50,746 nt of DNA, taken from contig JAGGUN010000017.1 of the NCBI GenBank assembly GCA_021158465.1, positions 1 to 50,746 on the forward strand. The letters are read 5' to 3'. The first letter of the stretch is position 1. Every line of letters begins with the position of its first letter. The notes below the pieces were generated by a model that ran no database searches, had not been told where the DNA came from, and was given only the letters and a program-made list of their open reading frames with translations. The position numbers and the translations under genes are program-made. The stretch is from a bacterium. Its GTDB lineage: Bacteria > UBP14 > UBA6098 > 4484-93. Below are positions 23,827 to 46,046 of the stretch, piece after piece.

Positions 23827-26800
23827 TTATGGGGCTAACACCGTTATTACTGCACTCATTGTTATCCCTCCTCTGCTGTCACTGTCTGCTGCCAGAACGG
23901 TAACAGGTGTATCCACTCCCACCATCGGCGCAGTGAACTGGGTTGTGAATGAGCCCGAGGCATTAGTATATCCGGTCAGCACAGAGAAACTGCCGCCGCT
24001 GGGTGCTGAGAATGTAACCATATGCCCACCGAGCGGGTTGCCAAACTCATCCCTTATCCTGATGGTAACGGAGCCTGTTGCCCCCGATGGGAGGGTTGTA
24101 GGGGCGATAAGCTCCGAGTTATCGGTGCTCGCATAGGAGGTTAGAAGCGTTATTGTGTCCACATTCGACCAGACGCCATCTGCAAACGCCCTTATCTCTG
24201 CCCATCCGCCGACACCGTCATCTGCCACATCTAAGGCAGACCAGGACATATCCCTCGTCAGGGTTCTCGATGTGTATGTCCCTGTTGCAACGGATGCAAG
24301 GCACTCATTTGTCGTGTGGATATCCTCTGTTATCGATCCGTATGTTGCCATAAGCCTGATGTCTGTCCCGTTTATCACCGGGTAGCTGTTCACATCCCAG
24401 GCTTGAACCTGTATGGTCGATGTGCTTGTGTTGTCGGCAAGGATTGAATCTGGATAAAGGTCTATAATTGCAAGGGAATCTACTACGCCGTCCAGCTCTC
24501 CCTCCTCATCCCACCAACCAGCTGTGTTCATAAAATGAAGCGAGTCAGAGGCGATGGAATCGGGGGATGCGAATGTCCTGACCTCTGCTTTTACCCAGAT
24601 GTCCTTGTAGGTTGAGAGGTCCGTTATCGTGTCTCGCATACTATACCAGACTGCCTTGGCGAAGCCGAGCGAGTCGGTTACCACAACCCCTGTGATTGAG
24701 CCGTGGTTCGACCATAGATAAACAGCTGTCCCCTCTGCAACGGGGTTTCTCATCGAGTCGGTAACCATTATCATCACGGTATCGGGGATACCGTCTATCA
24801 AGAGTCCCGGCACATTGCAGTCTCCTGAGAGCGAGATGTATGCAGGGAAACCGGAGTTTATCGTTATCCTCGGTGCTGCTGTCGATATTGTATCCCCGTG
24901 TGAGTCGAGTGTCAATGCCTGCACAACGACTGTCCCGGAGCGCATACCTGCCCGGAATGTCGCCGATGCGATCCCTGAGTGGGTGTATGCAGGGTCAGGA
25001 TATGCCGGGTTTAGCGTGCATGGTGGAACCGACGGCGGCGGGGCGTTGATAATCCGGAACCAGACCCGTGTGCTGTCCTCGACATCGTTGCCGTTTCTAT
25101 CGACGATATGCGCATATATCACGGAGAAGTCCCTCTCACCAACTCCGCGGACATATATAGAGGAATCAGACACGGAGAGCTCCATACCATAAGCAGAATC
25201 CGGTTTTATCGTGATGAACGACTGGCAGCCCAGGGAATCTCTACCTGTCCTGAGGTAAGCGGTTATCGTTGCGAGTCCTGCCTGCGTCCCCGGCTGGAAA
25301 AGTGTCCGAACGGTTCCAGCTATATCTGTCAAAAGGACGCTGTCGGCTATCCCTCCAAGGGTCGTGGCAAACCTCACGGCGTATCCCTCACCGACTGGAT
25401 TTCCAAGAGTATCGAGCACCGAGACCGTTATATGGGCAGACTCATCCCTGCCAGCGGTAAGAACCGAAGCATCGGTCTCGCAGATAAGCTCGGATGGTAC
25501 CCCTGTGGTGAAGGTAACCACCACCGTCTCGGATACCGTATCTGCGGTTGCTGTCACGGTAGCCGATGTGGGGGATGTCGACGAGTAGAGCCTTGTCTCG
25601 CACACGCCGTCGAGCGTATAGGCAATGGATGGGACGATGTATCCAGCGGTTGTGACAAAGTTCACACTTACACTGTCGGAGACGGGATGTCCAAGAGAGT
25701 CGAGAACAATAGCCCTGATATTCGAATAGCTCATACCATCTGCAGGAATTATAACCGGGATAGCCGCAAGCTGCATCTCTGCTACAGGTGTCGGGGTGTA
25801 TCTCAGGTTCATCAATCCGCTCGCTCCACCACAGGTCGCAGAAAGTGCCGCCTGTCCGGATGCTCGCGGAGCAGTGACGGTGAAATTCGCCCGACCGCTG
25901 TCATCTGTTACCGTGTATGTTGGTGTGACCGTTCCCTTTCCTGCCGGTTCGATCTGGAGTTCCACTGCCCTGCGTGGTATCGGGTTCCCGTAAGCGTCCT
26001 CCACAGTGAGAACAGCTGAGCCCGTGTCTGATCCATCGGCTACGAGCGTCATCGATGACGGATTAAATATAATCACAGCCGGCTCACCCGTCTCGAATGT
26101 TACTCCCACCGTGTCTGATGCCACCGACCCGGAGTATGCATAAACAGAACATTCCCCTGCTGTGGTTGTGCTTAAGAGCCTTATCTCCGCAATCCCGTCC
26201 TCGGTTAGTGCCCAGGATGGTGAAAGAACCCCTTCGCCATAAGCGATGGCAAAGTTTATCGGGGTGCCATCGGTCACATAGCCTGTGCTCTCAGTGAAGC
26301 AGTGCGCCTGAAGCGTCGAGAATGAATGCCCATCTGCTAAGATCGAAAACGGATCCGCAGTCAATACTATACTGTAAAGCTCCGTATTCACAAGTCGTAT
26401 CTGGCACACACCCATTTCTACTCCACCGTAGGAGGCTCGAATTGTTGCAATTCCAGGAATTTCCCCTGCACGATATACTGTGGAGGTTATGCCAGAATCG
26501 TCGGTTGCCCCGACGGAAAGCACACTCCCGTTATCTACGGAGAAATTGATTATCCATCCAGCATTCACCGGATTACCTGCAGCATCCTTTACCTCTGCAG
26601 AGATATTGACAGTAGTTATCCCATCTGCATCCACCTCGTCGGTGTCGGGAGTAAGATAAATCACTGCTGGTTCTCCAGCGAGGAACTCAATTTCTGTCGA
26701 GTCGAAATGCGTTCCGTCTCCGGCGAAGGCGAAAAGTGTATCCGTCCCGCAGGTTGTGAAGGATGTGAGCGTTGCAGTCGCTATCCCTGATGAAGTTATT

Positions 26801-29800
26801 GTCCTCACAGGGTCGATGGAGCCGAACCCAAGAGAATCGAACCACACAGGTGTTCCATCGGAGACAGGAGAACCACCTGCCGAAAGCACCGTCACGAGGA
26901 CATCGGCAGTGGACTCCCCGTCGGCAGTAATCCTCGACGGAACGACGGCGAGTCGGACAGATACTACATCCGTCGATACGAACCCAACGACACAGCTTGC
27001 TGTGGCGTCTCCACTTCTTCCCGTCACATTCGCCCAGCCAAGCTCAAGACCGCTCGTCAGAACCACCTCCGTGCTTCCTGCCTCTGTGTATGCTGTCGGA
27101 ACTATTGTCCCGAGTGTTGTCTCAAAATCGACCCTCGTTCCATCCTGAACCCTGTTCCCATAAGCGTCATAGACCCGCACCCAGATGGATGTTGTGTCAG
27201 CCCCATTTGCAACAAGTGTTGCAGCCCCTGACCATATCTCCATTATCGCTGGTTCGCCAGGAACAAACGAAACAATGGTCGATTCTCTGACCGCCCCGAC
27301 AGAAGCAACAACGAATACCGTATCGAGGACATTTATTGTCGATGTTAAGGTTGCTCTGGCAACGCCAGATTCCGTTGCGGCGACAGGAGGCGTGACAATA
27401 CCGGCGGTTGTCCTGAAGTGGACAAGCGTTCCATCGGAGACAGGGAACCCGAAAGAATCGAGAACAGTTGCTATGATATTTGCCTCATCCTCGCCGCTTG
27501 CAATGAGCCTGTTTGGGGATACAACGAGACTTATCGACGCCGCCTCCACAGGGTGAACGGTTACAATGGCATATCCGGTTGCTGAGCCAGCTTGAGCGGT
27601 TATCACACCCGTTCCGAATGTTAGCCCTGTGGTAAAAATAGATGACGCATAGCCGGAGTCGTCGGTGGCGGAAACCTCTGTTATGCTTCCGATGGTCGTG
27701 GAGAAGCTGACGCCGGTTCCCGGTGTGACGACATTGCCGAACTGGTCGAGGACCCGAACAGTCACGGTCATCGTGTCACCGCCGTTGGCGTAAAGGGTGC
27801 CGGCAGGGAGATTGGAAAACTCAATTATCGCAGGCTCGCCCGGCTCGAATATCACGACAACGGTATCTGACTTCCCAGCGTTTATCGAGACAATGACGGT
27901 GTCACTCCCTGCGATATACCCGCTTGTGAGCTCGCTCGATGCTGTTCCACCCACTGTGTAGTCAACGTTCCTGGAAAGGATCCCTGTGCCGATTGAGGTG
28001 AAGAATACAGGCAAACCATCAGATACAGGTCTCCAGACACTATCTACCGAATCTATATTCATAACACTGACGGTAATAAGTGAGCGTGATTCTCCGTCTG
28101 CTGTTATCCTCGGTGGGTTGGCAACAGCGAATACTGTATCCCCGTCAATTGGGATGAACTGGATGGGGAATGCACCCAAAGCTGCTCCTGCCTGTGCTGT
28201 TACGACTGCGGGACCTGTCGTGCTGCTGGAGATGTAGGACAATGCAACGCCTGAGTCAGATTCTGTCACAGCGCTCTCGACTATTGTCCCCACCGTTGTG
28301 GAGAACCTCACCTCTGTTCCGACAGTCACTGGGTTCTCAAAAGCGTCACGAACATATACCCTCACAGGCCACAACCCACCGTCCGCAGGCAAGGTATCGT
28401 GCGTGGTGAATGTATCAAACACAATATGTGCCGGCTCACCTGGGATAAACTGGATGTCGAATGTATCGGCGATTGTGGCGCCAGCAGAAGCTATTATCCG
28501 ACAGGTGCCTGTCTCGATGGGTGCCCGAATCGTTGCTGTTGCACGTCCAGCAGTCGTTAGGGCAATCCTCGGGGTTATTACCCCCTGCACGAACCCTGCT
28601 GATGTGTCCTGACTAAATGTTATCCTCGTGTTGTCGGATACCGGCAGACTGGAAGCATCATATACATCGGCAGTGATCGTCGCCTCCGAGACCCCATCGG
28701 CTACAAGCATTATCGGGTCGACTACAAGGTGTATCTCCGCTGCCTCAAGCCTGTAGAATGTTACCTGCGTATACCCGATTATCTCACCTGCTCGCACGGT
28801 TACAATGGCATCTCCCGTCTCGGTTGAGCTGGTGAGGATTGCGTAGGTACAGCCGAGCGTATCGGTAACAGCTGTGGGCGTTATCTCACCGAGTGAAGTC
28901 TCAAAACTGACACCTATCCCCGCACCGACAGGATTGGAATATCTGTCGTAGATGCAAACGGTTATCTTCGATGTTGTGACGCCATCCGCTGGGATGCTGT
29001 CCTCGCCTGGAGTGACCGTTATATCCATTCTCGACGGTTCTCCAGGAATAAAGTTCACCGAGACCTCGCCCGTGATCGTATCTGTTGCTGGAGCGGATGG
29101 TATAACCGTTGCAGTAACAAGCCTCCTCCCAACCGCAAGTGTGTCCGAACGCACATAAACACTTGCTAATCCTCCCTCTGTTGTGGTGACGGACGGAATA
29201 AGCGTTCCGTAGTCTTCCTCAACAGAGAACTGAACTATTGTCCCATTGGACACAGGAAAGCCCGATGAGTCATATACCTCACAGGTTACATTCGTCTCGC
29301 TTTCGCCATCTGCTACCACATTCACCGGATTTGCTGTCAGTAGAGCAACCGCCGCTTGAACAGGAACGAATCTGGTTGCACCGAACCCTACCGCTTCCCC
29401 ACTCCTCGCAATGATTGAGACATCACCAGGGGTAAGCCCTGCGGTTATCCGCACCCTTGCAATGCCCGATGTGTCGGTTATAGCAGGCGTCTCTATCGTC
29501 CCGAGGTTTGTCTCAAACGAGACCGACACCCCTCCCGGTGCATGGTTACCAAACTCGTCGAGGAGCTGTGCATACACCCAGCAGCTTGCATTCCCGTTTG
29601 CAGGAAGGGAGGTTGAATCGACACTGACATTAATAACCGTCGGTGGACCACCCTCAAGCCGTATCCTCACAGAGTCCCTCACGGTATCGCTTTCGACAAC
29701 GCAGGAGGCAACAATCCAGCAGACGCCTATGAATGTCCCCGCAGTGAATGTATTGACTGCTGTCCCACCGATAGTAGGACGCATAGCAAGCAGCGTCCCA

Positions 29801-32800
29801 AATGTGTCCGGATGAACCTCAAAATAGACAGGCGTCATGTCAGATACGATCGTTCCCTCGGAATTATATACCGTTGCCGTTATGGTCGATTGGGATACTC
29901 CATCAGCCGTCAGCTTGTTCGGATTAGCTGTTAGAACTATTGCACCGACACCTGTGGTATCGAAGAATACCGTTATCTGGTTGTATATATCCCCGCTCTG
30001 TGCCGAGACACGGCATATTCCCGGTATGTTTGAACTCGTTAGGGTTGCTGTTGCCGTTCCTGTGGCATCGGTGAATGTGTTCGTCGGTTCAATTGTTCCC
30101 CTTGATGCACCGAAGCTAACAGGCTCCCCTGCTCGAAGTGTATTCCCGAACCTGTCCAGAAGGACAGCCTCGATTGCCGATGTTGATACCCCGTTTGCTG
30201 GGATGGTATCAGGTGTTGCGGTGAGCGTAATCCTGTCCACAGGACCTGGTATAAGCTCGATGTCAGCGTCTCCGGAGACCGGACCAGAATAAGCCCTCAC
30301 CGTATTCAACCCTGTTCGTGTTCCTGCCCTGAATGTTGCTGTTGCCTGCCCCCCCTCCGTGTGAACAACAGTCGGGATAACAACACCGAGCGTATCCGCC
30401 GATACCACGGCAAAATGTATCGGTGTTCCATCGGTTATCGGGTTGCCAAGCGAGTCGTAGACCATAGCCTGCAGAACCGATGTCTCGAAGCCATCGGCGA
30501 CAAGCTGTGAAGGGTTGGCAGAAAGTATTATCGTATGGACATCCGTGTTCTCAAAATAGATGGACATCTCCGTTCTTGCATCCCCACTTCTTGCTCGAAC
30601 GATTGCCTCACCAGCCTCGGTCGAGGAATAGAGGCTGACTCGCACCGTTCCATCTGAGCCTGTTAGCTCGACATCCGGAGAAAGCGTTCCGAGTGTCGTC
30701 TCGAAATAAACTGTGTCTCCCGATGATACCGGGTTACCGAACCTGTCGAACAGGGCAGCATAAATATTCGTTCCAGAAACCCCATCTGCGGCAAGTGTCG
30801 TGTCATCCGACCAGATTGCAATGCTCTCAGGCTCGCCCGGCTCGATGGTAACCGTTGCCGTATCGGAAATTCCACCTGCATCGGCTATTATCATAACTCC
30901 GCCTGTATACTCCCCACTTATAAACTCGGCGGATATCCTTCCCGAGTCCGTGTATGCGGTCGGTGGGACGATGTATCCCAAGCTATCCGGCTCGAGTGTG
31001 AAGATAACAGGTGTTCCATCGGATACAGGGTTACCGAGCGAGTTCCTGACAAATCCTGTTATATGAACGGTTGAATCACCGCCTGTCGGGACACGCCTCG
31101 GCTCTGCCTCGATTACAATCGTTCCGACATCGGAGTTGGTGAAGGCTACCTGGCAGTTCCCGACAGCATCCCCAGATGTCGCAACGATAAGAGCCACTCC
31201 TGGAATAGTGCCTGAGTGGAGGGTCGCAGTAACCTCTCCTATATCATTTGTTATGTCTATCGAATCTATCTCACCAAGCGTGGTGGAGAAATGAACTATA
31301 TGTCCCGCTGTTACGAGGTTTCCTTGAGCATCTTTTACAACGCCATAGATTGTGGATACTGTGTCTCCATTTGCCGGGATATCGGAGGGAACTGGTGTCA
31401 GCTCTATTGTTGCTGGCTCACCAGGGACAAAGTTTATGTTTATGGAGTCGGCGACCCCTCCGCCGGCATCGGCTGTCACCCAGATGACAGAGGGAGTTGT
31501 TGATGCTCGAAGGGTCGTCTCAACCATACCCGAATCGGTGTACGCCACTCCCGGAAATATAAATCCTCCTGTTGTTCGGAAGAATATCGGTGTTCCATCG
31601 GCGACTGAAACACCCGATGAATCATATGCGATAGCGTATACCCTTGTTGTGCTTCTGCCGTCAGCAACGAGCATCGTTGAGTCGGCGTATATCGATATGC
31701 TTGCCACGACGAGCTGTGTGAACTCGACGAATCCCTGCGCCACAATTTCTCCTGATGTTACCGTGACAACTGCTCTCCCCATCTCCGTTGCGCTTGTAAG
31801 CTCACTTTGTGCCGTGCCGGAGCTATCCGTATAGACGGGGGAAATTATACTGCCGAGTGTCGTCTCGAACTCCACCCTGACACCGCTTCCAACGGGGTTG
31901 CCGTATTCGTCCCTCACCGTTGCCGATATGTTGGATATGGAATGCCCGTCAGCAGGTATGGAGTCGGGTGAGATAGACAATGTTATGTTTGCTGGCTCTC
32001 CGGGGACAAAATCGACATATGTAGTATCGGAAAGCCCCAGAAGGCTTGCGATGATTGTTGCCCTGCCAACAGTTGTCTCGCTCGTCAGGCTCACTGTTGC
32101 CTCACCCCCAACGGTCGTTGCAATGGTGTCTATCGTGCCGAACGGCGTCGTCGTTGTGTCGAAATATGAGTGAAATATGACAATTGTCCCATCTGCAACA
32201 GGGTTCCCATAGGTATCCAGAAGCCTCGCCTTCACCTCCGATCTGCTCGTTCCATCCGCTGTGATCCTGTTCGGGTTTGCCGAGACGGATATGAAGGCAG
32301 CAGGTGATACGACAAACTCTACATCGCACTCGCCGAACCCTTCCTCGCAGCTCACCTCGACCGTTGCCCTGCCAACTGTCGGAGAGGAGGTCAGATATAC
32401 CGTTGCTCTACCGACTGAATCGGTATAGGCGTTGCTTCGAACTGAGCCAAGGTTTGTAGTAAAGTTCACGAGTCTTCCCGATTCAACAGGGTTGCCGTAC
32501 TCATCCGTGAGGCTCGCCACAATAGTCGACCTACTTCTACCGTCCGCCGCTATGCTTTCCGGCGTCGCCGTGACAGTTATGTATCTGCACCTGCCAGCTG
32601 TGAACCTGACAAGTATCGTGTCTGCTGCTATCCCTGCCGTTGCAATCACCGTGTCAACACCAGCAACTGTCCCAGGTGAAAGCACAGCGGTTGCAACACC
32701 ACTTTCCGTGTAGGATGTCGGCGGAAGAACATCTCCAAGGGAGGATGAGAAACTGACCGGGACGCCGTCCGATACTGGTCGCCCAATGCTGTCGAGGACA

Positions 32801-35586
32801 AGCGCAGACAGTGTTATCGTTCCTGCACCTATCTGTGTGGACGACACATCTGATGATAGGATTATCTGCGACGGTGTCGCAGGCTGGAAGTAGACCAAGA
32901 CTTGTCCGTATGCTCCCCCAGCGTGTGCCTCGACGAGGGCTATACCGTTTGTTGCAGAGCTTGTGAGAATTGCGGAGAAGCTGCCTGCCGAATCTGTCGG
33001 GACAGTCTCGGGTATTATCTCTCCGAGGCTCGTTGAGAGGCTGACGAGCACATCCCTGCCGACAGCATTGCCATACTCATCATAGACAGTCCCCGTTATA
33101 TCTGATGTCGAGTGCCCATCGGCAGGGAGGGTATCGGGGACTGCACTCATTTCAATCCTCGCTGGCTCACCAGGGACAAAATCGACATAAACCGTGTCCG
33201 ATATGCTTGTCGTGTCCGAGTTTGCCACGGTTGCAATCACCTCCGCCGTTCCAACGATCGTCTCGCTGACAAGCCGGAGCCTTACATAGCCGCTTTCTGT
33301 GTAGCCTCGATATGTGGAGAGAATGCTTCTGGTGATGGCAGATGCAAACGAATTGCTACCGGTCTTCTTTGCCAGGTCCATAAGTGTTCCCCTGTCCGAA
33401 ACCAGGTCGACAGGCGTTCCATCGGCGGCAGGACGACCCATCGTGTCGGAGACATAGACCTCAAGCTCGGAATAAGACTCTCCGTCCGCTGTGATGCTCC
33501 TTGGAGATGCCGTCAGACGAATGCTCGACGGATAGCTGCGAACAAAGTATATATATGTCTGCCCGAAAGCTCCTTCTGCTGTCGCTGAGATGGTCTTCCT
33601 GCCCGGTGATATCGAGCTTGTTACCTGTGAGCGTGTTACGCCGTAGGCGTCCGTGTAGGAGGTGGTAGGGTCGATCCTGGCATTGGAGTCCGAACAGCTA
33701 AACTCCACCCGGACACCAGCTGAAACAGGGTTCGAAAACTCATCAAGGACGGTCGCTTCTATCTCGGTTGTGTCGGTTCCGTCTGCGAATATCGAATCAC
33801 GCCCGACAGTTACGGTTATCGAGTTCGGAGGACCCGGCAAAAACGGCACAAATATTGTATCCGTTGCAGCTCCTGTCCCACAGGATTCCGCCTCAGCGAT
33901 AACGGATGTCGTCCCGGCAACGGTCGATGAAACGAGCATAACCTCCGCCCAGCCATCCGATGTGTATGCCGTGAAACGGGATTCCTTCGGTAGAAAACCG
34001 CTCACAACTCCAAGATTTAATATCCTTTTCGTCCTCGGAGAGATAAGTACTCCATCGGAGGCTGTGAATGTAACACTGACATTATCAGATACAGGGAAGG
34101 AGTTTTCATCTAACACCTGTGCTCGTATTAGGGTTGATGAGTTTCCATCAGCAGGAATAGAGGACGGTGTTGCCATAAGGTTTATTGAGGTGGCACAGCT
34201 TGTCGTGAAATATACGGATGTTTGACCAGTTGCTCCCCCGGCTGTTGCTGATATAATGCCAAATCCTGGAGTAGTCGATGATGTCAGGACTGCTCTTGCC
34301 ACCCCGAGTATATTGGTGGTCGTTATGCTCGGATAGATACTCCCGCGGTCGGCTGAGAAGGTAACCTCTGTTCCCTCGAAAACCGGATTGCTGTACGCAT
34401 CAACAACCGTTGCAGTGATTGTCGTTGTGTCTCTTCCATCTGCTGTGAGGACAGTGTCAGCAGCAACAACATCTACCCTGTCTGGCTCGCCAGGGTCAAA
34501 ATATATCCTTATCGTGTCAGATACGCCGGATACAGATGCAGAAACGACCGCTGTGTCCACCGTTGTTGACGCGATAAGCTTCGCAAACGCCCGCCCGTTG
34601 ACAGTGTAAACATATAGCTGGTCAGACTTTGGTAACTTTGCAGGCAATCTCCTCTTCTTTGCCGAATGCCTCTCCTTGATGAACGGAGCAAAATTGTCGA
34701 AGGATGCCACCGCCTCGTAGGGAACGAGGTTTCCACCCGTTGTTACAAGTGATACCCGTGTTCCATCAGGGGCAAGACCACCCAGAAGTGTATATACAGT
34801 CACCTGAAGGACCGCTTCGTCCGTGCCGTTTGCTGTCAGGTTGAAGAGGTCGCTTGTCAGCACTACGCTCGATATCGAATCCTCAACAAATGTCACCTGG
34901 ACAGAATCCCGTAGGCTATCCCTGTGCGTTGCGACAATCCAGACCTGCATAGCTGTCGATGGGGATGGGACATAAGCCCTTGCGACGCCCGATTCATCCG
35001 TCAGCCCAGAGTTGACAGGGTAGACGACAATTCCTACCTGGCTTGTCGAGAATGTAACCTGCCTTCCCAGAAGCGGATTGCGGTTGTCGTCCATAAGGCG
35101 AGCCGCAACAACACAGGAATCATCCTGATTCACTACAGCAGAATCCTTCTCGACCCAGATGTCGAGATAGACCGCTGGCTTGTGCCCATATTCGTAAACG
35201 GTTACAACAATGGTCTTCGTGCTCTGCTCATAAACGGATGCAGTAATCGTTGCCGTGTGAACGACCGAGTCCCTCGGTGTGTTGAGCGTTGTGAAAGCCC
35301 AGCCGGAATCGTTCGAGAACACACTCGTGCGGGTGAGCGTTCCATAATCCGTCTCGAATATCACCTCGACATCACCGACGGAGTTTGAATCCTGGTCTAT
35401 GACATGAGCAGAAATGAGAACGCTCTGCGTCGCCTCAATCTCTGTGGCGGAGGCAAAAAGCGTGTCGAGCACTATACCCTCTTCACCTGATATCGGATTG
35501 AGATTCCCTCGCTGCTGACAAGAGGAGAAAACAAGAAATAAAGAGAGAAGAAAAATTGCGGCGGAATATATGCCATTCCTTCGCAT
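23827..35586 (-). CDS. Giant surface lipoprotein of about 36 Ig-like (Big_1/invasin-type) domains
   Basis: The 3,919-residue product has a signal peptide ending in LVFSSC, a lipobox, so Cys 22 or so is probably lipidated and +2 Gln favours the outer membrane. Nearly all the rest is bacterial Ig-like domains of invasin/intimin type, about 100 residues each, with the signatures ADGxSxSxI, YGNPV, TTLGxI, YTDSxGxAxxxLTS and VxFVPGEP. They alternate: one type carries VSDGTPVxF and ends in FVPGEPAxI; the next carries EYGNPV and TTLG and ends in VxFxxxxVxxI. About 16 such pairs with a period near 200 residues lie between residues about 165 and 3,360. The last 550 residues are more divergent repeats. 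No C-terminal sorting signal or barrel domain is seen. Start: ATG with TAGGAGGG. A rod-like adhesin is the likely role. Confidence 0.9.
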   Translation of the reverse strand: MRRNGIYSAAIFLLSLFLVFSSCQQRGNLNPISGEEGIVLDTLFASATEIEATQSVLISAHVIDQDSNSVGDVEVIFETDYGTLTRTSVFSNDSGWAFTTLNTPRDSVVHTATITASVYEQSTKTIVVTVYEYGHKPAVYLDIWVEKDSAVVNQDDSCVVAARLMDDNRNPLLGRQVTFSTSQVGIVVYPVNSGLTDESGVARAYVPSPSTAMQVWIVATHRDSLRDSVQVTFVEDSISSVVLTSDLFNLTANGTDEAVLQVTVYTLLGGLAPDGTRVSLVTTGGNLVPYEAVASFDNFAPFIKERHSAKKRRLPAKLPKSDQLYVYTVNGRAFAKLIASTTVDTAVVSASVSGVSDTIRIYFDPGEPDRVDVVAADTVLTADGRDTTTITATVVDAYSNPVFEGTEVTFSADRGSIYPSITTTNILGVARAVLTSSTTPGFGIISATAGGATGQTSVYFTTSCATSINLMATPSSIPADGNSSTLIRAQVLDENSFPVSDNVSVTFTASDGVLISPRTKRILNLGVVSGFLPKESRFTAYTSDGWAEVMLVSSTVAGTTSVIAEAESCGTGAATDTIFVPFLPGPPNSITVTVGRDSIFADGTDTTEIEATVLDEFSNPVSAGVRVEFSCSDSNARIDPTTSYTDAYGVTRSQVTSSISPGRKTISATAEGAFGQTYIYFVRSYPSSIRLTASPRSITADGESYSELEVYVSDTMGRPAADGTPVDLVSDRGTLMDLAKKTGSNSFASAITRSILSTYRGYTESGYVRLRLVSETIVGTAEVIATVANSDTTSISDTVYVDFVPGEPARIEMSAVPDTLPADGHSTSDITGTVYDEYGNAVGRDVLVSLSTSLGEIIPETVPTDSAGSFSAILTSSATNGIALVEAHAGGAYGQVLVYFQPATPSQIILSSDVSSTQIGAGTITLSALVLDSIGRPVSDGVPVSFSSSLGDVLPPTSYTESGVATAVLSPGTVAGVDTVIATAGIAADTILVRFTAGRCRYITVTATPESIAADGRSRSTIVASLTDEYGNPVESGRLVNFTTNLGSVRSNAYTDSVGRATVYLTSSPTVGRATVEVSCEEGFGECDVEFVVSPAAFISVSANPNRITADGTSRSEVKARLLDTYGNPVADGTIVIFHSYFDTTTTPFGTIDTIATTVGGEATVSLTSETTVGRATIIASLLGLSDTTYVDFVPGEPANITLSISPDSIPADGHSISNISATVRDEYGNPVGSGVRVEFETTLGSIISPVYTDSSGTAQSELTSATEMGRAVVTVTSGEIVAQGFVEFTQLVVASISIYADSTMLVADGRSTTRVYAIAYDSSGVSVADGTPIFFRTTGGFIFPGVAYTDSGMVETTLRASTTPSVIWVTADAGGGVADSININFVPGEPATIELTPVPSDIPANGDTVSTIYGVVKDAQGNLVTAGHIVHFSTTLGEIDSIDITNDIGEVTATLHSGTIPGVALIVATSGDAVGNCQVAFTNSDVGTIVIEAEPRRVPTGGDSTVHITGFVRNSLGNPVSDGTPVIFTLEPDSLGYIVPPTAYTDSGRISAEFISGEYTGGVMIIADAGGISDTATVTIEPGEPESIAIWSDDTTLAADGVSGTNIYAALFDRFGNPVSSGDTVYFETTLGTLSPDVELTGSDGTVRVSLYSSTEAGEAIVRARSGDARTEMSIYFENTDVHTIILSANPSQLVADGFETSVLQAMVYDSLGNPITDGTPIHFAVVSADTLGVVIPTVVHTEGGQATATFRAGTRTGLNTVRAYSGPVSGDADIELIPGPVDRITLTATPDTIPANGVSTSAIEAVLLDRFGNTLRAGEPVSFGASRGTIEPTNTFTDATGTATATLTSSNIPGICRVSAQSGDIYNQITVFFDTTGVGAIVLTANPNKLTADGVSQSTITATVYNSEGTIVSDMTPVYFEVHPDTFGTLLAMRPTIGGTAVNTFTAGTFIGVCWIVASCVVESDTVRDSVRIRLEGGPPTVINVSVDSTSLPANGNASCWVYAQLLDEFGNHAPGGVSVSFETNLGTIETPAITDTSGIARVRITAGLTPGDVSIIARSGEAVGFGATRFVPVQAAVALLTANPVNVVADGESETNVTCEVYDSSGFPVSNGTIVQFSVEEDYGTLIPSVTTTEGGLASVYVRSDTLAVGRRLVTATVIPSAPATDTITGEVSVNFIPGEPSRMDITVTPGEDSIPADGVTTSKITVCIYDRYSNPVGAGIGVSFETSLGEITPTAVTDTLGCTYAILTSSTETGDAIVTVRAGEIIGYTQVTFYRLEAAEIHLVVDPIMLVADGVSEATITADVYDASSLPVSDNTRITFSQDTSAGFVQGVITPRIALTTAGRATATIRAPIETGTCRIIASAGATIADTFDIQFIPGEPAHIVFDTFTTHDTLPADGGLWPVRVYVRDAFENPVTVGTEVRFSTTVGTIVESAVTESDSGVALSYISSSTTGPAVVTAQAGAALGAFPIQFIPIDGDTVFAVANPPRITADGESRSLITVSVMNIDSVDSVWRPVSDGLPVFFTSIGTGILSRNVDYTVGGTASSELTSGYIAGSDTVIVSINAGKSDTVVVIFEPGEPAIIEFSNLPAGTLYANGGDTMTVTVRVLDQFGNVVTPGTGVSFSTTIGSITEVSATDDSGYASSIFTTGLTFGTGVITAQAGSATGYAIVTVHPVEAASISLVVSPNRLIASGEDEANIIATVLDSFGFPVSDGTLVHFRTTAGIVTPPVAATESGVARATLTSTINVLDTVFVVASVGAVRESTIVSFVPGEPAIMEIWSGAATLVANGADTTSIWVRVYDAYGNRVQDGTRVDFETTLGTIVPTAYTEAGSTEVVLTSGLELGWANVTGRSGDATASCVVGFVSTDVVSVRLAVVPSRITADGESTADVLVTVLSAGGSPVSDGTPVWFDSLGFGSIDPVRTITSSGIATATLTSFTTCGTDTLFAFAGDGTHFDSTEIEFLAGEPAVIYLTPDTDEVDADGITTVNISAEVKDAAGNPVNAGWIINFSVDNGSVLSVGATDDSGITSTVYRAGEIPGIATIRASYGGVEMGVCQIRLVNTELYSIVLTADPFSILADGHSFSTLQAHCFTESTGYVTDGTPINFAIAYGEGVLSPSWALTEDGIAEIRLLSTTTAGECSVYAYSGSVASDTVGVTFETGEPAVIIFNPSSMTLVADGSDTGSAVLTVEDAYGNPIPRRAVELQIEPAGKGTVTPTYTVTDDSGRANFTVTAPRASGQAALSATCGGASGLMNLRYTPTPVAEMQLAAIPVIIPADGMSYSNIRAIVLDSLGHPVSDSVSVNFVTTAGYIVPSIAYTLDGVCETRLYSSTSPTSATVTATADTVSETVVVTFTTGVPSELICETDASVLTAGRDESAHITVSVLDTLGNPVGEGYAVRFATTLGGIADSVLLTDIAGTVRTLFQPGTQAGLATITAYLRTGRDSLGCQSFITIKPDSAYGMELSVSDSSIYVRGVGERDFSVIYAHIVDRNGNDVEDSTRVWFRIINAPPPSVPPCTLNPAYPDPAYTHSGIASATFRAGMRSGTVVVQALTLDSHGDTISTAAPRITINSGFPAYISLSGDCNVPGLLIDGIPDTVMIMVTDSMRNPVAEGTAVYLWSNHGSITGVVVTDSLGFAKAVWYSMRDTITDLSTYKDIWVKAEVRTFASPDSIASDSLHFMNTAGWWDEEGELDGVVDSLAIIDLYPDSILADNTSTSTIQVQAWDVNSYPVINGTDIRLMATYGSITEDIHTTNECLASVATGTYTSRTLTRDMSWSALDVADDGVGGWAEIRAFADGVWSNVDTITLLTSYASTDNSELIAPTTLPSGATGSVTIRIRDEFGNPLGGHMVTFSAPSGGSFSVLTGYTNASGSFTTQFTAPMVGVDTPVTVLAADSDSRGGITMSAVITVLAP

Positions 35587-39747: not shown

Positions 39748-41643
39748 ATGAAAAGTTTATTCAGTGGTCTTGTTCTTGTTCTTGCTTTGTTTTCTGTGCT
39801 GTTTGCTTCTGGGGTAAAGTTTCCTGCTCCTCGGCTTTGTCCACCTGAGCTGTCGGGTGCGAAAAGCAGTATGGTTACGCTGCCGTATTCTACGAGTTTT
39901 GAGACAGCGGCGGAGCGTGCTGACTGGACGGTCTATACGCTTGGAAGCAGTGCGGTTTCCTGGAGCGTTGCCGACGATAACGCTGCTACGGGGGAGTATT
40001 CCTTTGTTCATTGGTGGAACGATGCACATCTGGACGGCTGGCTCGTTTCACCACCGCTCGAGCTACCGGATGGAGCTGATCCTTACCTGACATTCCAGCA
40101 GTATACATTGTGGACATTCGACTACAGGTACCACGGTGTTGCAATCTCAAGCGGTTCACCCGACCCAGAGGATGGGGATTTCGTTGAGCTTGCTGAGATA
40201 GACTTCTTCTCTGATGAGGAGTGGAGCGAGGTTGGACCGATTGACATTACAGGCTATTCAGGCACAGTTTATCTTGCGTTCCACTATGAGGGTACCGATG
40301 GAGATGTTTGGTATGTGGATGATGTTTTTGTCGGTGTGCCGCTCGAGCACGATGTTGCCTGCGAAGGTCTGAGCATAGAAAATCCGTTTGTAGAGCCGGA
40401 TATTCCGCTGACTATATCTGCGACATTGGACAACTCCGGGCTTTCAACGGAGAGTTTCTATGCTATAATCGATGTTCAAGAAAACGGTGTCCCCTTCTTT
40501 ACTGATTCTGTCGAGGTTTCCTCCCTTGCACCGGGAGGTTCGAGGGATGTTACCTTTTCCTCATTCACGCCATCTGCCGGGAATATTTATCAGGTCTATG
40601 TTTTCCCAAGGCTTGAAACGGATGAGTATACCGGTAACGACACAACAAGTATCCAGCTTTACACCTATACAAATCCGATGAAGCCGTTGCTTCAGGCGTT
40701 TGAATCGGTAGCTTGTCCTTACTGTTCGCGGGCTGCTGAGGGGTTGCGTATGCTGGAGGCGGAATACGACACATCGATTATCATCGCTGTCTATCACTCG
40801 ACGCTTTCCATCGGTTCTGACCCGTTTTACTCCAGAGAGTTTGAGGATGTGGCTGACTACTATGGCGTATCAGGTTTTCCAACCGTCTGGACGAACGGGT
40901 CAATCGAGGTAAGCGGTGGTTATCCATCGTCTGAGTCCTATGGACTTCACTACTACGAGGATGCAGTGGAGCAGATACTCTCATATCGCTCCCCGTTTAT
41001 CGTCGATATAACCGTCGATACGATCGATATCCTCTCTGCCCGCATATCTGTCGATGTCGAGGTGACAGGTGAGATTCCCGATGATATGGATGCTTACCTC
41101 AGACTTGCCCTCGTTGAAGATAGTATATCCTACCACTGGGCTCCTGGTTCACCTGCTCATAATTATGTTCTTCACTGCGTTCGTTCACTTGTTACACCGA
41201 CATCATCGGGGGTTCATCTACCTGTTTACCGTGGATACGAGGAGAGCTTTGATTTTGATATAACACTCTCCGGCTCCTGGGACCCGAGCAGACTGTTTGT
41301 TTTAGCATACATTCAGGATCACCCATCGAGGTTTATCTGGCAAGCGAAACAGGTGAAGCTGGAGCCGTCGACGGGTATGGATGAGAAGAGGAGTCCTTCC
41401 GTTGTGTCTGTGAGCTTCTTCCCGAATCCGTTCAACGCTTATGTAAGGATACTCGTGAACTCCCCTGAGCCGGGTGGGATTTGCATATACAACATAAAAG
41501 GGGAGGCTGTCGATAGGTTTTCCGTTGAGAATGGAGAGACAAATATCCTGTGGAACGCATCGGGTCTCCCGACAGGTCTGTATCTCTATCGCTTCGAAGG
41601 GGAAAGCAGCAGTGTATCGGGCAGGGTTATACTTTTGAAGTAG
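39748..41643 (+). CDS. Secreted Omp28-like protein with CPYC thioredoxin-fold domain and sorting module
   Basis: The 631-residue product has a signal peptide (1-20). A jelly-roll/cleaved-adhesin-like domain follows (LPYSTSFETAAERADW to WYVDDVFVGVPL, about 45-200), and then an Ig-like domain. An Omp28-type thioredoxin-fold domain carries FESVACPYCSRAAEG (CPYC, about residues 322-325) and GVSGFPTVWTNG (the cis-Pro region). The last ~75 residues (VSFFPNPFNAYVRILV to GRVILLK) form a FlgD-like/type IX sorting module, as in the subtilase at 19446-21326. It is probably a cell-surface protein; redox activity through CPYC is possible. Good AAAGGAGGG, 15 bp after hppA. Confidence 0.85.
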   Translation: MKSLFSGLVLVLALFSVLFASGVKFPAPRLCPPELSGAKSSMVTLPYSTSFETAAERADWTVYTLGSSAVSWSVADDNAATGEYSFVHWWNDAHLDGWLVSPPLELPDGADPYLTFQQYTLWTFDYRYHGVAISSGSPDPEDGDFVELAEIDFFSDEEWSEVGPIDITGYSGTVYLAFHYEGTDGDVWYVDDVFVGVPLEHDVACEGLSIENPFVEPDIPLTISATLDNSGLSTESFYAIIDVQENGVPFFTDSVEVSSLAPGGSRDVTFSSFTPSAGNIYQVYVFPRLETDEYTGNDTTSIQLYTYTNPMKPLLQAFESVACPYCSRAAEGLRMLEAEYDTSIIIAVYHSTLSIGSDPFYSREFEDVADYYGVSGFPTVWTNGSIEVSGGYPSSESYGLHYYEDAVEQILSYRSPFIVDITVDTIDILSARISVDVEVTGEIPDDMDAYLRLALVEDSISYHWAPGSPAHNYVLHCVRSLVTPTSSGVHLPVYRGYEESFDFDITLSGSWDPSRLFVLAYIQDHPSRFIWQAKQVKLEPSTGMDEKRSPSVVSVSFFPNPFNAYVRILVNSPEPGGICIYNIKGEAVDRFSVENGETNILWNASGLPTGLYLYRFEGESSSVSGRVILLK

Positions 41644-41719: not shown

Positions 41720-42598
41720 ATGAAAAGGGTATTATTTCTGGTCGTTGGGTTGGTTTTTCTGTTTTCTTTGGCTGCTTTTGCTGGCGGTGGTGATGAGCTG
41801 GTGGCGACTGTGAACGGGGAGAAGATAACAAAAGATGATGTCCTCTATGAGATTTCGCTCTATCCCCTCGACAAGAAGGATTGGGCTTTCAGCGAGGAGG
41901 GGCTTTCCCAGATACTCAGCAATATCATAGAGAGGAAATTGCTTGTCAGGGAAGCCCTCTCTTTGTCTATTGACACGATGGATGCGGTGAAGCGGGAGAT
42001 TGCAAGGGCAAAGGAGGATATACTCATAAGGCATCTCCTCTCACCGAAGATGAAAGCTGCCGTAGCGGGGATATCAGAGGATAAGCTGCGGGCGTATTAC
42101 GATGAGAATGACACCCTTTTCATTGAGCCGGAGAAGGTGCATGTGTATTACATCGTAACAGACTCGCTCGAGCTGGCGAAGAAGATATACAAGAAGCTGA
42201 AGAAAGGCGAGAGCTTTGAGGCGCTCGCAAGGAAATACTCGATATCCTCGGAGCGAGACAGGGGTGGCAATGCAGGGTATCTGACCAGAGACATGTTCAG
42301 GGATAAGAATCTGGCTGATACCGCCTTTTCGCTTAAAATAGGGGAAATAAGCGATATTATCACATCCGGTGGGCTTCACTACATTATGAAGGTAACAGAC
42401 AAGATTGCATCGTATAAGCCAGATTTTGAGGATATTAAGGATGCCCTTTCCCAGAGGGTGGCTGCTGACCTGCAGAATAAGGTTGTGGATGACTACAAAT
42501 CAGAGTTGAGGAAGAAAGCGAAGATATCGATTGATAACTCTGTCCTTTATTCTATCCAGCCAAAGACGCTGAAACCGTCCGAGCCGATAGGGGAATGA
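41720..42598 (+). CDS. Exported peptidyl-prolyl isomerase, PpiC/SurA-like
   Basis: Folding catalyst for proteins crossing the periplasm. The 292-residue product has a signal peptide (1-22, FAG-G). A SurA-like N-terminal chaperone region follows (LVATVNGEKITKDDVLYEIS), and then a parvulin domain at about 130-230 with SFEALARKYSISSERDRGGN, GYLTRDMF and IGEISDIITSGGLHYIMKV. A charged C-terminal tail completes it. Strong AAAGGAGGG. Its stop overlaps coaD by 4 bp. Confidence 0.9.
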   Translation: MKRVLFLVVGLVFLFSLAAFAGGGDELVATVNGEKITKDDVLYEISLYPLDKKDWAFSEEGLSQILSNIIERKLLVREALSLSIDTMDAVKREIARAKEDILIRHLLSPKMKAAVAGISEDKLRAYYDENDTLFIEPEKVHVYYIVTDSLELAKKIYKKLKKGESFEALARKYSISSERDRGGNAGYLTRDMFRDKNLADTAFSLKIGEISDIITSGGLHYIMKVTDKIASYKPDFEDIKDALSQRVAADLQNKVVDDYKSELRKKAKISIDNSVLYSIQPKTLKPSEPIGE

Positions 42599-43074
42599 GG
42601 GTAGCGGTCTATTCTGGGACATTCGACCCGGTAACACTGGGGCATCTCGACCTAATATCGAGGGCTACAAGACTTTTTGATTCAGTAGTCGTTGCAATTG
42701 GTGTTAATCCGAGGAAGAAACCTCTTTTTTCGCTCGAGGATAGGCTGTATATGCTTCGGGAGGCTACTGTACACTATCGCGGGGTGAGCGTCGACTACTA
42801 TGAGGGGTTGCTTGCAGCATACGCACGGAGGATAAAAGCAACGGCAATAATCAGAGGGCTCAGGGCAGTGTCGGACTTCGAGTATGAGCTGCAGATGGCT
42901 CTGGCAAATAGGAAGCTCTTCCCCGAAGCAGAAACGATATTCCTTATGCCAAGCGAGAAATTTACATACCTCAACTCAACGCTCGTGAAGGATATACTCC
43001 TCTCCAACGGAGAGATATCTTCCTTTGTGCCGCCGGTTGTAATCGAAGTAGCGAAGAAGCGCGGGCTTATTTAG
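42595..43074 (+). CDS. coaD: Phosphopantetheine adenylyltransferase
   Basis: Transfers AMP to 4'-phosphopantetheine, the penultimate step of CoA synthesis. The 159-residue product has the canonical length and the motifs YSGTFDPVTLGHLDLI (TxGH), NPRKKPLFSLEDRL and IIRGLRAVSDFEYELQMA, plus TYLNSTLVKDI. The ATGA overlap with ppiC implies coupled translation. It is followed after 9 bp by the HgdB-like gene. Confidence 0.96.
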   Translation: MRVAVYSGTFDPVTLGHLDLISRATRLFDSVVVAIGVNPRKKPLFSLEDRLYMLREATVHYRGVSVDYYEGLLAAYARRIKATAIIRGLRAVSDFEYELQMALANRKLFPEAETIFLMPSEKFTYLNSTLVKDILLSNGEISSFVPPVVIEVAKKRGLI

Positions 43075-43083
43075 AGCATCCTA

Positions 43084-44064
43084 ATGGAGAAAGTAGGTTT
43101 CACCACGACGATACCGGTGGAGGTCATCCTGTCCGGAGGGTATCAGCCTGTTGACCTGAACAACCTATTTATCACATCGCGGGAGCGTGAGAGCTTTGTC
43201 CAGATTGCCCGATTTGCAGGCTACCCCAGGAATATCTGCGAATGGATAAAGGGACTGTTTGGGGCTGTTGTATCCTCCGGTGATATCAAGAAGGTTGTCG
43301 CCGTTACGAGAGGCGACTGCTCCAATACACAGGCTCTTATGGAAACGCTCGAGGCAAGGGGAATCGACATTATTCCGTTTGAGTTCCCATACAACAGAAC
43401 TCCTCGGATCCTCAGGGAGCATATGATTGAGTTCGCAGATACACTTGGAACAACGCTCGACGCCGCAGAAAAGAAGAGGGAAGAGCTTTTACCCATAAGG
43501 AGGAAGCTTTGGGAGCTTGACCGTCTGACATACGAGGAATACAGGGTCTCGGGTAGGGAAAACCACCTCTGGCTTGTTTCGTCCTCGGATTTCAACGGCG
43601 ACCCGGAGAGGTTCTTCTCGGAGATCAGTGAGTTCCTTCTGGATGTGAAGCAGAGGGATCCTATCTATAAGCGGCTTGTTCCGCTTGGGTATATCGGTGT
43701 TCCGCCAATATTCGACGACCTCTACGATGTGATAGAGCAGTACGGTGGGACGGTGATCTTCAACGAGATACAGCGTCAGTTCGCCTTCCCGTATGAGGTG
43801 AGTGATATTGTTGAGCAGTATTTGCGATATACATACCCATACTCGATTTTCTTCAGGCTCGATGACATAAAGAAAGAGATAAAAAGAAGGGGTATCCGAG
43901 GTGTAATACATTATGTTCAATCGTTCTGTTTCCGCCAGATTGAGGATATAATTATAAGGGGGGCTCTCGATGTTCCGGTGCTTACTGTCGAGGGAGGAGA
44001 ATCGTTCCGTGTGGACGAGCGGACAAAGATAAGGATACAAGCGTTTATCAAGATGCTAAGATGA
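43084..44064 (+). CDS. HgdB-like subunit of the 2-hydroxyacyl-CoA dehydratase superfamily
   Basis: The 326-residue product belongs to the iron-sulfur enzyme family that uses ATP-driven, very low-potential electrons. It opens with VEVILSGGYQPVDLNNLF and has ARFAGYPRNICEWIKGL. It contains exactly three Cys (about 52 in NICEW, 79 in GDCSN, 281 in SFCFRQ), the number needed for one site-differentiated [4Fe-4S] cluster. That argues against the double-cubane type, which from memory needs more Cys. No HgdA-like second subunit is present; the dedicated activase follows with an ATGA overlap. The substrate is unknown, and nothing nearby suggests amino-acid fermentation. Confidence 0.82.
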   Translation: MEKVGFTTTIPVEVILSGGYQPVDLNNLFITSRERESFVQIARFAGYPRNICEWIKGLFGAVVSSGDIKKVVAVTRGDCSNTQALMETLEARGIDIIPFEFPYNRTPRILREHMIEFADTLGTTLDAAEKKREELLPIRRKLWELDRLTYEEYRVSGRENHLWLVSSSDFNGDPERFFSEISEFLLDVKQRDPIYKRLVPLGYIGVPPIFDDLYDVIEQYGGTVIFNEIQRQFAFPYEVSDIVEQYLRYTYPYSIFFRLDDIKKEIKRRGIRGVIHYVQSFCFRQIEDIIIRGALDVPVLTVEGGESFRVDERTKIRIQAFIKMLR

Positions 44065-44807
44065 TCCAGCTGGGGTTCGACATAGGGAGCAGGTTCGTTA
44101 AGATTGTGTCGAACGATGACGGAAAGCTGTCTGATTTTTTGATGATAGATACGATGGAATTTTACAAGGGGTATGGAGTGAGGGGGGAGAGAGGGTTTCA
44201 AGTGGATTTTGCCAAGCTGGGGGTGGACAGGTTCGACAAGATTGTTTCGACAGGGTACGGTAGGGAGAATGTGAAGCTTGCTGGAGCAGTAGCTATCCCG
44301 GAGACAGAGGCTCATGCGGTTGGAGCAGCTTATCAGACAGCTCTTTCTGATTTTGTCCTCCTCGACCTCGGTGGGCAGGACTCGAAGGTTGTGCTTGTGA
44401 GGGGTGGTGATGTAGTAGATTTCTATATGAACGACAGATGTGCCGCATCCACAGGGAGGTTCCTTGAAAACAGCGCGAAGGTTTTGGGGCTCAGCCTTGA
44501 AGAGCTATCGGGCTTCTGGGAAGAGCCTGAGAAACTTACCTCCACCTGTGCGATATTTGCTGAGAGCGAAATTATTGGGAAGATTGCATCAGGGGTCGCA
44601 GTTGAGCGGCTTGCAGCAGGTGTTAATCATTCTGTCGTGGCGAGGTTTCTGCCGTTTTTGAAGCGGTTCGATGAGAGGAGGCTCGTCGTTGTTGGCGGTG
44701 TCGCAAAGAACAGCGCCATTGTCCATATACTGAAGGATATGGAATATGAGGTGGTAATCCCAAGATACCCACAGTTTAACGGAGCGATCGGTTGTGCTGT
44801 CTGCTGA
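44061..44807 (+). CDS. HgdC-like ATP-dependent activase (BadF/BcrD family)
   Basis: A homodimeric ATPase that injects one electron into its partner dehydratase or reductase. The 248-residue product has LGFDIGSRFVKIV (phosphate 1), LLDLGGQDSKVVLV (phosphate 2) and VVVGGVAKN (adenosine motif). Two Cys, about 127 in MNDRCAASTGRFLE and 163 in TSTCAIFAESEI, are spaced as in known activases that bind a [4Fe-4S] cluster between subunits. The ATGA overlap with the HgdB-like gene strongly implies that the pair works together. The glycosyltransferase follows after 3 bp. Confidence 0.88.
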   Translation: MIQLGFDIGSRFVKIVSNDDGKLSDFLMIDTMEFYKGYGVRGERGFQVDFAKLGVDRFDKIVSTGYGRENVKLAGAVAIPETEAHAVGAAYQTALSDFVLLDLGGQDSKVVLVRGGDVVDFYMNDRCAASTGRFLENSAKVLGLSLEELSGFWEEPEKLTSTCAIFAESEIIGKIASGVAVERLAAGVNHSVVARFLPFLKRFDERRLVVVGGVAKNSAIVHILKDMEYEVVIPRYPQFNGAIGCAVC

Positions 44808-44810
44808 AAT

Positions 44811-46046
44811 ATGCTGAATATTCTCTTCATATCGTTCTTCTTCCCACCGATGGGTGGGACAGGCATTCTTAGGGCAGCGAAGCTTGTAAAGTATTTCCCT
44901 CGATTCGGAATAAGACCTTATGTTGTCGCTGTGAAGCCGAATGGATTCCCATGGATAGACCACTCTTTCGATAACGATATAAGAGATGCAATTGTTCTAA
45001 GGACTTCCCATCCTCCGTTTTTCCCTGTTGGAGGTGTTGGCAGGAGACCGAACTTTTTCCCGGCGAGTGACTATATATTCCTTCCGGATAACAAGCTCTG
45101 GTGGATGCCGTATCTTTATTCGGCTGCAATGGATCTTGCAGCTGCTGTCAGTTTCGATGCCGTGTTTGTTGAGCTTCCGACATTCTCAAGCCTGCTTGCT
45201 GGCAGAAGGGTAGCAAGGAAGCTTGGCATCCCATATTTTGCAGATTTCCGCGATTCTTGGTGCCAGAACCCTGCAAGACCGCGCCTGCCAGCTACTCACA
45301 GAAGATACAACAGATACCTCGAGGCAACTGCCCTATCCGATGTTGAGTATGTCTTCACCGTGAATGATAGCATAAGGGAGGAGCTTTTACTTCATCACAG
45401 GCATCTTGGCGGGAAGGTGGCAACAGTCTACGGCGGATTCGACAAAGAAGAGATTGTAAAAACTGTCAGGAAAAACGACAGGATGAGTATCACCTATCTC
45501 GGCACGGTTTATCGGCAGTTTCGCTCGCCTTACCCGTTCCTTCTTGCGTTTTCACGGGTTGTAAGAAGTAATCGGGGGTTCAAGGAGAAGGTGGTGTTGC
45601 GCTTTGTCGGGCGGTATACGGGGGCTCTCCTGGAATGGATAGATGAGCTTGGAATAGCGGATATAGTTGATGTTATAGACTATCTCCCGCACAGTGAGGC
45701 TGTTCGTTTCGGGATGCGCTCTGATATCTTGCTCTTTCTCCTTGACCCACTCACAGCTTCATACGGGCAAACATCGGGGAAGCTCTTTGAATACCTTGGG
45801 ATGGGGAAGCCTATCTTCGCTGTCGTACCACAGCTCTCCGAAGCAGCAGATATAATAAGAAGGTTTAACGCCGGGTTCGTTGCATCCCCGCGGATGATAG
45901 ATGAGATCGAAAGAGCTCTTTTGGACTCGTTCTCGTTATGGGAGAGAGGAGAACTTCCTGAGAAGGTAGGCGGACATGAAAGTTTCCTGTATCCGCACAA
46001 TGTTGAGAGGATGGCTGAGATAATTAAGCAGAGGATAGGGGGTTAG
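44811..46046 (+). CDS. Glycosyltransferase, GT4-like
   Basis: The product has 411 residues. The N-terminal Rossmann domain opens MLNILFISFFFPPMGGTGIL, typical of GT-B fold sugar transferases of family 4. It continues with a donor-side domain holding MSITYLGTVYRQFRSPYPFL and the late phrase GKLFEYLGMGKPIFAVVP (a conserved E in the nucleotide-sugar site). It probably adds a sugar to a surface polysaccharide or lipid; donor and acceptor cannot be told. Its role beside the HgdBC pair is unclear. The end is only 7 bp from the convergent DUF366 gene. Confidence 0.85.
   Translation: MLNILFISFFFPPMGGTGILRAAKLVKYFPRFGIRPYVVAVKPNGFPWIDHSFDNDIRDAIVLRTSHPPFFPVGGVGRRPNFFPASDYIFLPDNKLWWMPYLYSAAMDLAAAVSFDAVFVELPTFSSLLAGRRVARKLGIPYFADFRDSWCQNPARPRLPATHRRYNRYLEATALSDVEYVFTVNDSIREELLLHHRHLGGKVATVYGGFDKEEIVKTVRKNDRMSITYLGTVYRQFRSPYPFLLAFSRVVRSNRGFKEKVVLRFVGRYTGALLEWIDELGIADIVDVIDYLPHSEAVRFGMRSDILLFLLDPLTASYGQTSGKLFEYLGMGKPIFAVVPQLSEAADIIRRFNAGFVASPRMIDEIERALLDSFSLWERGELPEKVGGHESFLYPHNVERMAEIIKQRIGG

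Follow-up and report, generated by a model that had tools for sequence, protein, structure and literature searches.

A stand-alone HgdB-like protein and its activase form a distinct branch of the radical dehydratase/Birch-reductase superfamily in anaerobes

Some of biology's most demanding reductions, Birch-type ring reduction among them, become possible when ATP is spent to fire an electron into a [4Fe-4S] cluster. In this study, we report a pair of adjoining genes for an HgdB-like protein and its activase, located on a 50,746-nucleotide stretch of bacterial DNA (contig JAGGUN010000017.1; hereafter the window), and show that by family and fold the pair belongs to the BCR/HAD radical-enzyme superfamily. 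The pair is a distinct branch of this radical dehydratase/Birch-reductase superfamily and occurs in anaerobes of several phyla.

The gene pair, its family and its cysteines

The gene for the HgdB-like protein (43084-44064, + strand, 326 aa) is followed by that of the activase, an ATPase of the HgdC/DCCP-R type (44061-44807, + strand, 248 aa). The two open reading frames overlap by 4 bp, as the sequence-only reading had noted, and the shared ATGA at 44061-44064 places the start of the activase inside the stop of the HgdB-like gene. The probable operon neighbours are coaD upstream (42595-43074, + strand; TIGR01510, 186.7 bits) and a glycosyltransferase gene downstream (44811-46046, + strand; Pfam Glyco_transf_4, 29.7 bits). 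In a scan for promoters and terminators, sites were no commoner than in shuffled sequences. Elsewhere in the window, positions 39748-41643 (+ strand) encode an Omp28-like protein whose domains include choice-of-anchor J and, at the C-terminus, a T9SS-type sorting domain, and positions 23827-35586 (- strand) hold a single open reading frame of 3919 aa that begins like a lipoprotein.

Profile search matched the HgdB-like protein to Pfam HGD-D over its full length (97.6 bits, cut-off 28.4). Its AlphaFold model (pLDDT 94.1, pTM 0.91) matched the folds of DCCP, HadC, BzdN and MbdN in the PDB, with TM scores of 0.76-0.84 by query length and E values of 1e-9 to 4e-16. It is this full-length HGD-D match together with the common fold that places the protein in the superfamily. 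The activase scored 191 bits against the acyl-CoA dehydratase activase profile TIGR00241 (cut-off 125.4), and its closest solved relatives are 4eht and 1hux. As in a partner ATPase with two cluster cysteines, its Cys127 (codon 44439-44441, + strand; motif DRCAAS) and Cys163 (44547-44549, + strand; TCAIFAES), which are predicted to ligate a dimer-bridging cluster, are invariant in 14 activases of the phylum.

The HgdB-like protein contains three cysteines, all of them predicted cluster ligands: Cys52 (codon 43237-43239, + strand) in the motif PRNIC, Cys79 (43318-43320, + strand) in GDCSN and Cys282 (43927-43929, + strand) in FCFRQIED. The sequence-only reading, which had put them at about 52, 79 and 281, was right in the count and in the first two positions, while the third sits at 282. 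Each of them is conserved in 60/60 aligned homologues, no other cysteine column is conserved, and in a profile alignment they fall on PRNLC, GETTC and LQFC of DCCP. The double cubane of BzdN is held by six cysteines (36/73/100/263/293/327), and the single catalytic [4Fe-4S]-OH2 cluster of BzdO by three (95/128/380) (PMC11971306). By alignment, the counterparts of BzdN Cys 73, 100 and 327 are retained in the single-cubane HgdB-like family, whereas the distal-cubane positions are cysteine in 0/60, 0/60 and 1/60 of its members, against 15/15 in DCCPs. Since the three cysteines are the proximal-cubane ligands of DCCP and BzdN and the distal ones are absent, a single [4Fe-4S] cluster with an open iron is predicted for the HgdB-like protein, in line with the earlier suggestion that its cysteines suffice for one such cluster. 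Identity as a double-cubane protein was rejected by the cysteine pattern, by the tree and by the curated profile NF040772, against which the protein scored 29.7 bits and the family 30-49 bits (cut-off 350).

The sites near the lost distal-cubane columns are occupied by the near-invariant residues T7-T9, E228-x-Q230-R231-Q232 and Y249-T250-Y251. In BzdO, Trp46 and the substrate ring fill the space of the lost sub-cluster (PMC11971306), and by analogy the polar residues of the present family may line a substrate pocket.

Distribution, pairing and phylogeny

One scan of named genomes found 258 relatives of the HgdB-like protein, of which the best 80 were kept. Among these best 80 of 258, the nearest was that of candidate division Zixibacteria bacterium 4484_93 (87% identity), and the remainder were about 50-56% identical over the full length. 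The same best 80 included Bacillota (Desulfosporosinus, Pelotomaculum, Sporomusa, Pelosinus and Thermosyntropha), Desulfuromonadia (Geobacter, Pelobacter), Nitrospirae, Chloroflexi and Armatimonadetes. In a sample of 400 Chloroflexi genomes, 22 carried a member of the family at 374-544 bits, and the next-best matches scored below 43 bits.

A tree of 59 proteins, including E. coli YjiM, DCCP, HadB/C, BzdN and MbdN/O, was built by a quick search without bootstrap and contains long branches, as does that of the activases. In it the HgdB-like family forms its own clade (support 100) on a long branch, apart from DCCP, HadB/C, BzdN and MbdN/O. The cognate activases likewise form their own clade (support 100), a grouping that is partly score-based since they were defined by profile score (at least 214 against at most 182). 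The invariant C52/C79/C282, the FCFRQIED motif, the separate HgdB-like clade and the separate activase clade occur together. The protein fell within no sampled clade of known substrate, which leaves standing the earlier suggestion of a new one. Assignment as a 2-hydroxyacyl-CoA dehydratase was rejected because there is only one HGD-D protein and it lies outside the HadB and HadC clades; assignment as a class I benzoyl-CoA reductase was rejected because it lies outside BzdN, MbdN and MbdO and matches no NCBIfam Bcr/Bzd subunit. A literature search of limited coverage found no paper on the short single-cubane family, so that earlier notice of it is possible.

The assembly that contains the window (54 contigs, 97.6% complete) encodes exactly one HGD-D protein and one activase, and thus no HgdA-like subunit of that Pfam family was found in it. 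The absence of an HgdA-like partner from the surroundings of the pair, pointed out in the sequence-only reading, therefore extends to the whole assembly, and in the loci of relatives with a usable gene call no second dehydratase subunit adjoined the gene. A hidden HgdA partner was accordingly rejected. The HGD-D protein is also the sole one in at least three further genomes (G029, G035 and G038).

Among 17 genomes of the phylum, 14 have both HGD-D and activase and the other three lack both; of these three, one (G006) is only 74% complete, and the sole HGD-D protein found in another (G002) is a Cys-poor paralogue. The HGD-D and activase genes lie apart in three genomes (G003, G005 and G007), which shows that their co-occurrence is not mere proximity. 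Cytochrome oxidase subunit I (COX1) was found in 0/17 of the phylum genomes, as expected for anaerobes. Elsewhere, an activase gene lies at most 400 bp behind the HgdB-like gene on the same strand in 68/100 loci, and at least one activase was found in 25/25 genomes searched, mostly genomes without an adjacent one. Three of these 25, with genomes of 1.4-1.5 Mb, hold exactly one activase each. In one Chloroflexi group the activase is non-adjacent and of a more distant type, and the dedicated pairing is therefore not universal.

Two side observations concern related proteins. The diverged paralogue of G004 (L049:8256-9245) and G002 (L062:2-889), 36% identical and with most cluster cysteines lost, adjoins in both genomes a gene of a common small family (221-229 aa) and is possibly a non-catalytic derivative. 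A further architecture was seen at three loci (L295:7002-9215, L296:7408-9564 and L297:4256-6481), where activases adjoin proteins of 720-740 aa; in G026 and G041 these give two matches to the C-terminal region of HGD-D within a single frame.

Gene neighbours and candidate substrates

The sequence-only reading took the neighbouring coaD and glycosyltransferase genes as a hint that the substrate might be a CoA thioester or a glycan precursor. This was not borne out, as the two genes adjoin the pair in G000 and G001 alone, both of the window's own genus, and elsewhere its neighbours are other housekeeping genes; we do not regard them as functionally linked to the pair. The CCA-adding enzyme gene adjoins the activase in three phylum genomes. 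In Bacillota the order is gerM-murI-HGD-activase-rph-rdgB, in Desulfuromonadia murI is divergent from the pair, and in Desulfosporosinus the order is glmS-glmL-glmE-mal-HGD-activase. Class I fumarase-type genes adjoin the pair in several lineages, and enolase-like and GAPDH-like genes adjoin the HGD gene in one Chloroflexi group; the murI, rph, rdgB, enolase-like and GAPDH-like genes were assigned by reading the sequence, without an HMM test. Such varied neighbours trace out no common pathway, and they argue for a housekeeping role and against inferring the substrate from them.

The ketyl-radical mechanism is that of 2-hydroxyacyl-CoA dehydratases and class I benzoyl-CoA reductases, and the pair might in the same way dehydrate or reduce a CoA thioester. 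Superfamily membership and fold agree with such classical acyl-CoA chemistry, to our knowledge every characterised relative with a catabolic role has a CoA ester as its substrate, and coaD adjoins the pair in the window's genus. We nevertheless consider it unlikely, given that the coaD adjacency is limited to this one genus, that genes of CoA-ester catabolism lie beside the pair in no lineage seen, and that the HgdB-like protein falls outside the HadB/C and Bzd/Mbd clades and is about 50-100 residues shorter than their subunits.

Somewhat less probable still is a role in sulfur chemistry, in which the open iron would bind sulfide, giving a [4Fe-5S] cluster as in TudS, and the pair would reduce, remove or transfer sulfur, with a small PF11823 protein as carrier in some genomes. 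The four PF11823 genes of the phylum all lie beside the pair's activase and keep a Cys-Gly motif. The order is repeated, with a double-cubane protein, in yjiM-yjiL-ytiA of E. coli K-12 (L177:8669-10851), where ytiA, directly behind yjiM-yjiL, is a PF11823 gene (putative Se/S carrier, 48.9 bits); this three-gene unit deserves a test. In Slackia, too, PF11823 genes are clustered together with those of an activase and an HGD subunit, and in the part of PMC5322559 available they are listed together, the pair being given no role. TudS, with its [4Fe-5S] cluster, is a partial relative within the superfamily (PMC11971306). Against this, PF11823 was not found in the window's genome or in 13/17 phylum genomes, and it adjoins the pair in 0 of 100 other loci except two that repeat the same phylum genomes. 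A general link to PF11823 was rejected, the pair-adjacent genes being confined to four genomes; in 28 host genomes, the majority of PF11823 genes are found away from the pair. SelD scored below the cut-off in 17/17 phylum genomes, so that selenium metabolism via a PF11823 carrier was also rejected, and, with no PF11823 found in the window's genome, sulfur is a weak lead.

The lineage-specific neighbours suggest two further roles. In Desulfuromonadia and Desulfosporosinus, metH-like and glutamate mutase genes lie near the pair, as would fit a role, like that of RamA or RACo, in reducing Co(II) to Co(I) and so activating corrinoid proteins or other enzymes. This is highly improbable, since the metH context is confined to one lineage and the B12-binding_2 domain was not found in the well-assembled pair-bearing genomes G003, G008, G014 and G016. 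Activation of B12-binding_2 corrinoid proteins was rejected, this domain not being found in the window's genome either. In the Desulfosporosinus-type loci (L071-L089) the pair stands between methylaspartate ammonia-lyase and citrate-lyase-like genes, where the mesaconate hydratase of the methylaspartate pathway might be expected. An enzyme of a glutamate pathway, catalysing for instance the mesaconate step in the methylaspartate route or a reaction of D-glutamate, would accord with the glm gene order, with a murI neighbour in Bacillota and Desulfuromonadia and with the fumarase-type genes. However, murI, rph and rdgB commonly stand together as a housekeeping cluster, and other lineages have enolase/GAPDH-like, coaD or CCA-enzyme neighbours; with its supporting neighbours specific to particular lineages, the glutamate pathway was rejected and is given next to no weight.

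A bolder reading, which we hold to be less likely than not, makes the pair a dedicated core enzyme of anaerobes. It would be a homodimeric single-cubane radical reductase whose substrate, unlike a CoA ester, might be some housekeeping molecule that carries sulfur or is related to nucleotides, and it would constitute a new catalytic branch of the superfamily. With one copy and one activase even in 1.4-Mb genomes, the pair looks like a core trait of anaerobes, and it probably serves such a core role and not a catabolic pathway.

Proposed mechanism and comparison with known systems

The family, fold and cysteine pattern of the pair, its separation as a clade and its genome-wide co-occurrence are computed observations, and on these we consider it fairly likely that the two proteins make up an ATP-driven reductase of very low potential with a mechanism of the DCCP/benzoyl-CoA reductase type. 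The activase is predicted to form a homodimer around a single [4Fe-4S] cluster, which Cys127 and Cys163 from each chain would bridge, and ferredoxin or flavodoxin would supply this dimer with one electron. After a change of shape driven by ATP, the activase would fire the electron into the HgdB-like partner. The partner is probably homodimeric too; in each of its chains, Cys52, Cys79 and Cys282 would ligate one [4Fe-4S] cluster and leave the fourth iron open for substrate. The pair probably carries out one very difficult reduction. Its function is open to direct testing, since the two genes are small, the conserved motifs are sharp and there are hosts in culture, such as Desulfosporosinus, Pelosinus and Sporomusa.

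The published scheme of the superfamily starts with double-cubane homodimers, which lead to TudS and to reductases and dehydratases that are heterodimeric; in the available part of the source it shows no homodimeric single-cubane member (PMC11971306). The present single-cubane stand-alone family, if homodimeric as proposed, would fill this missing slot.

The thiouridine desulfidase TudS is a superfamily relative with a single [4Fe-5S] cluster; it has one domain only, and in the available part of the source no activase is reported for it (PMC11971306), whereas the pair has one. The class I benzoyl-CoA reductases BzdNO/MbdNO have the same fold, and the three-Cys cubane pattern of BzdO is common to the HgdB-like protein. 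Unlike the stand-alone pair, they are heterodimers in four-gene systems, with a double cubane in BzdN, and the acid-base pair Glu65/His131 of BzdO is not obviously retained, Thr82 and not His following Cys79 here. HadBC (PDB 3o3m) and HgdAB, which act on CoA esters in fermentation, share with the pair the fold, the three cysteines per subunit and the activase family, but they are heterodimers, whereas one subunit gene is present here, and at 15-17% identity they lie in a separate clade. The best match in both sequence and fold is DCCP (22% identity, TM 0.79-0.84 by query length), which with DCCP-R (PDB 6eno, 7yyl), and in E. coli as YjiM/YjiL, is likewise a stand-alone HgdB-like gene with an activase and no second subunit. 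DCCP has six ligand cysteines for its [8Fe-9S] cluster, whereas the single-cubane family lacks the three distal ones and forms a clade of its own.
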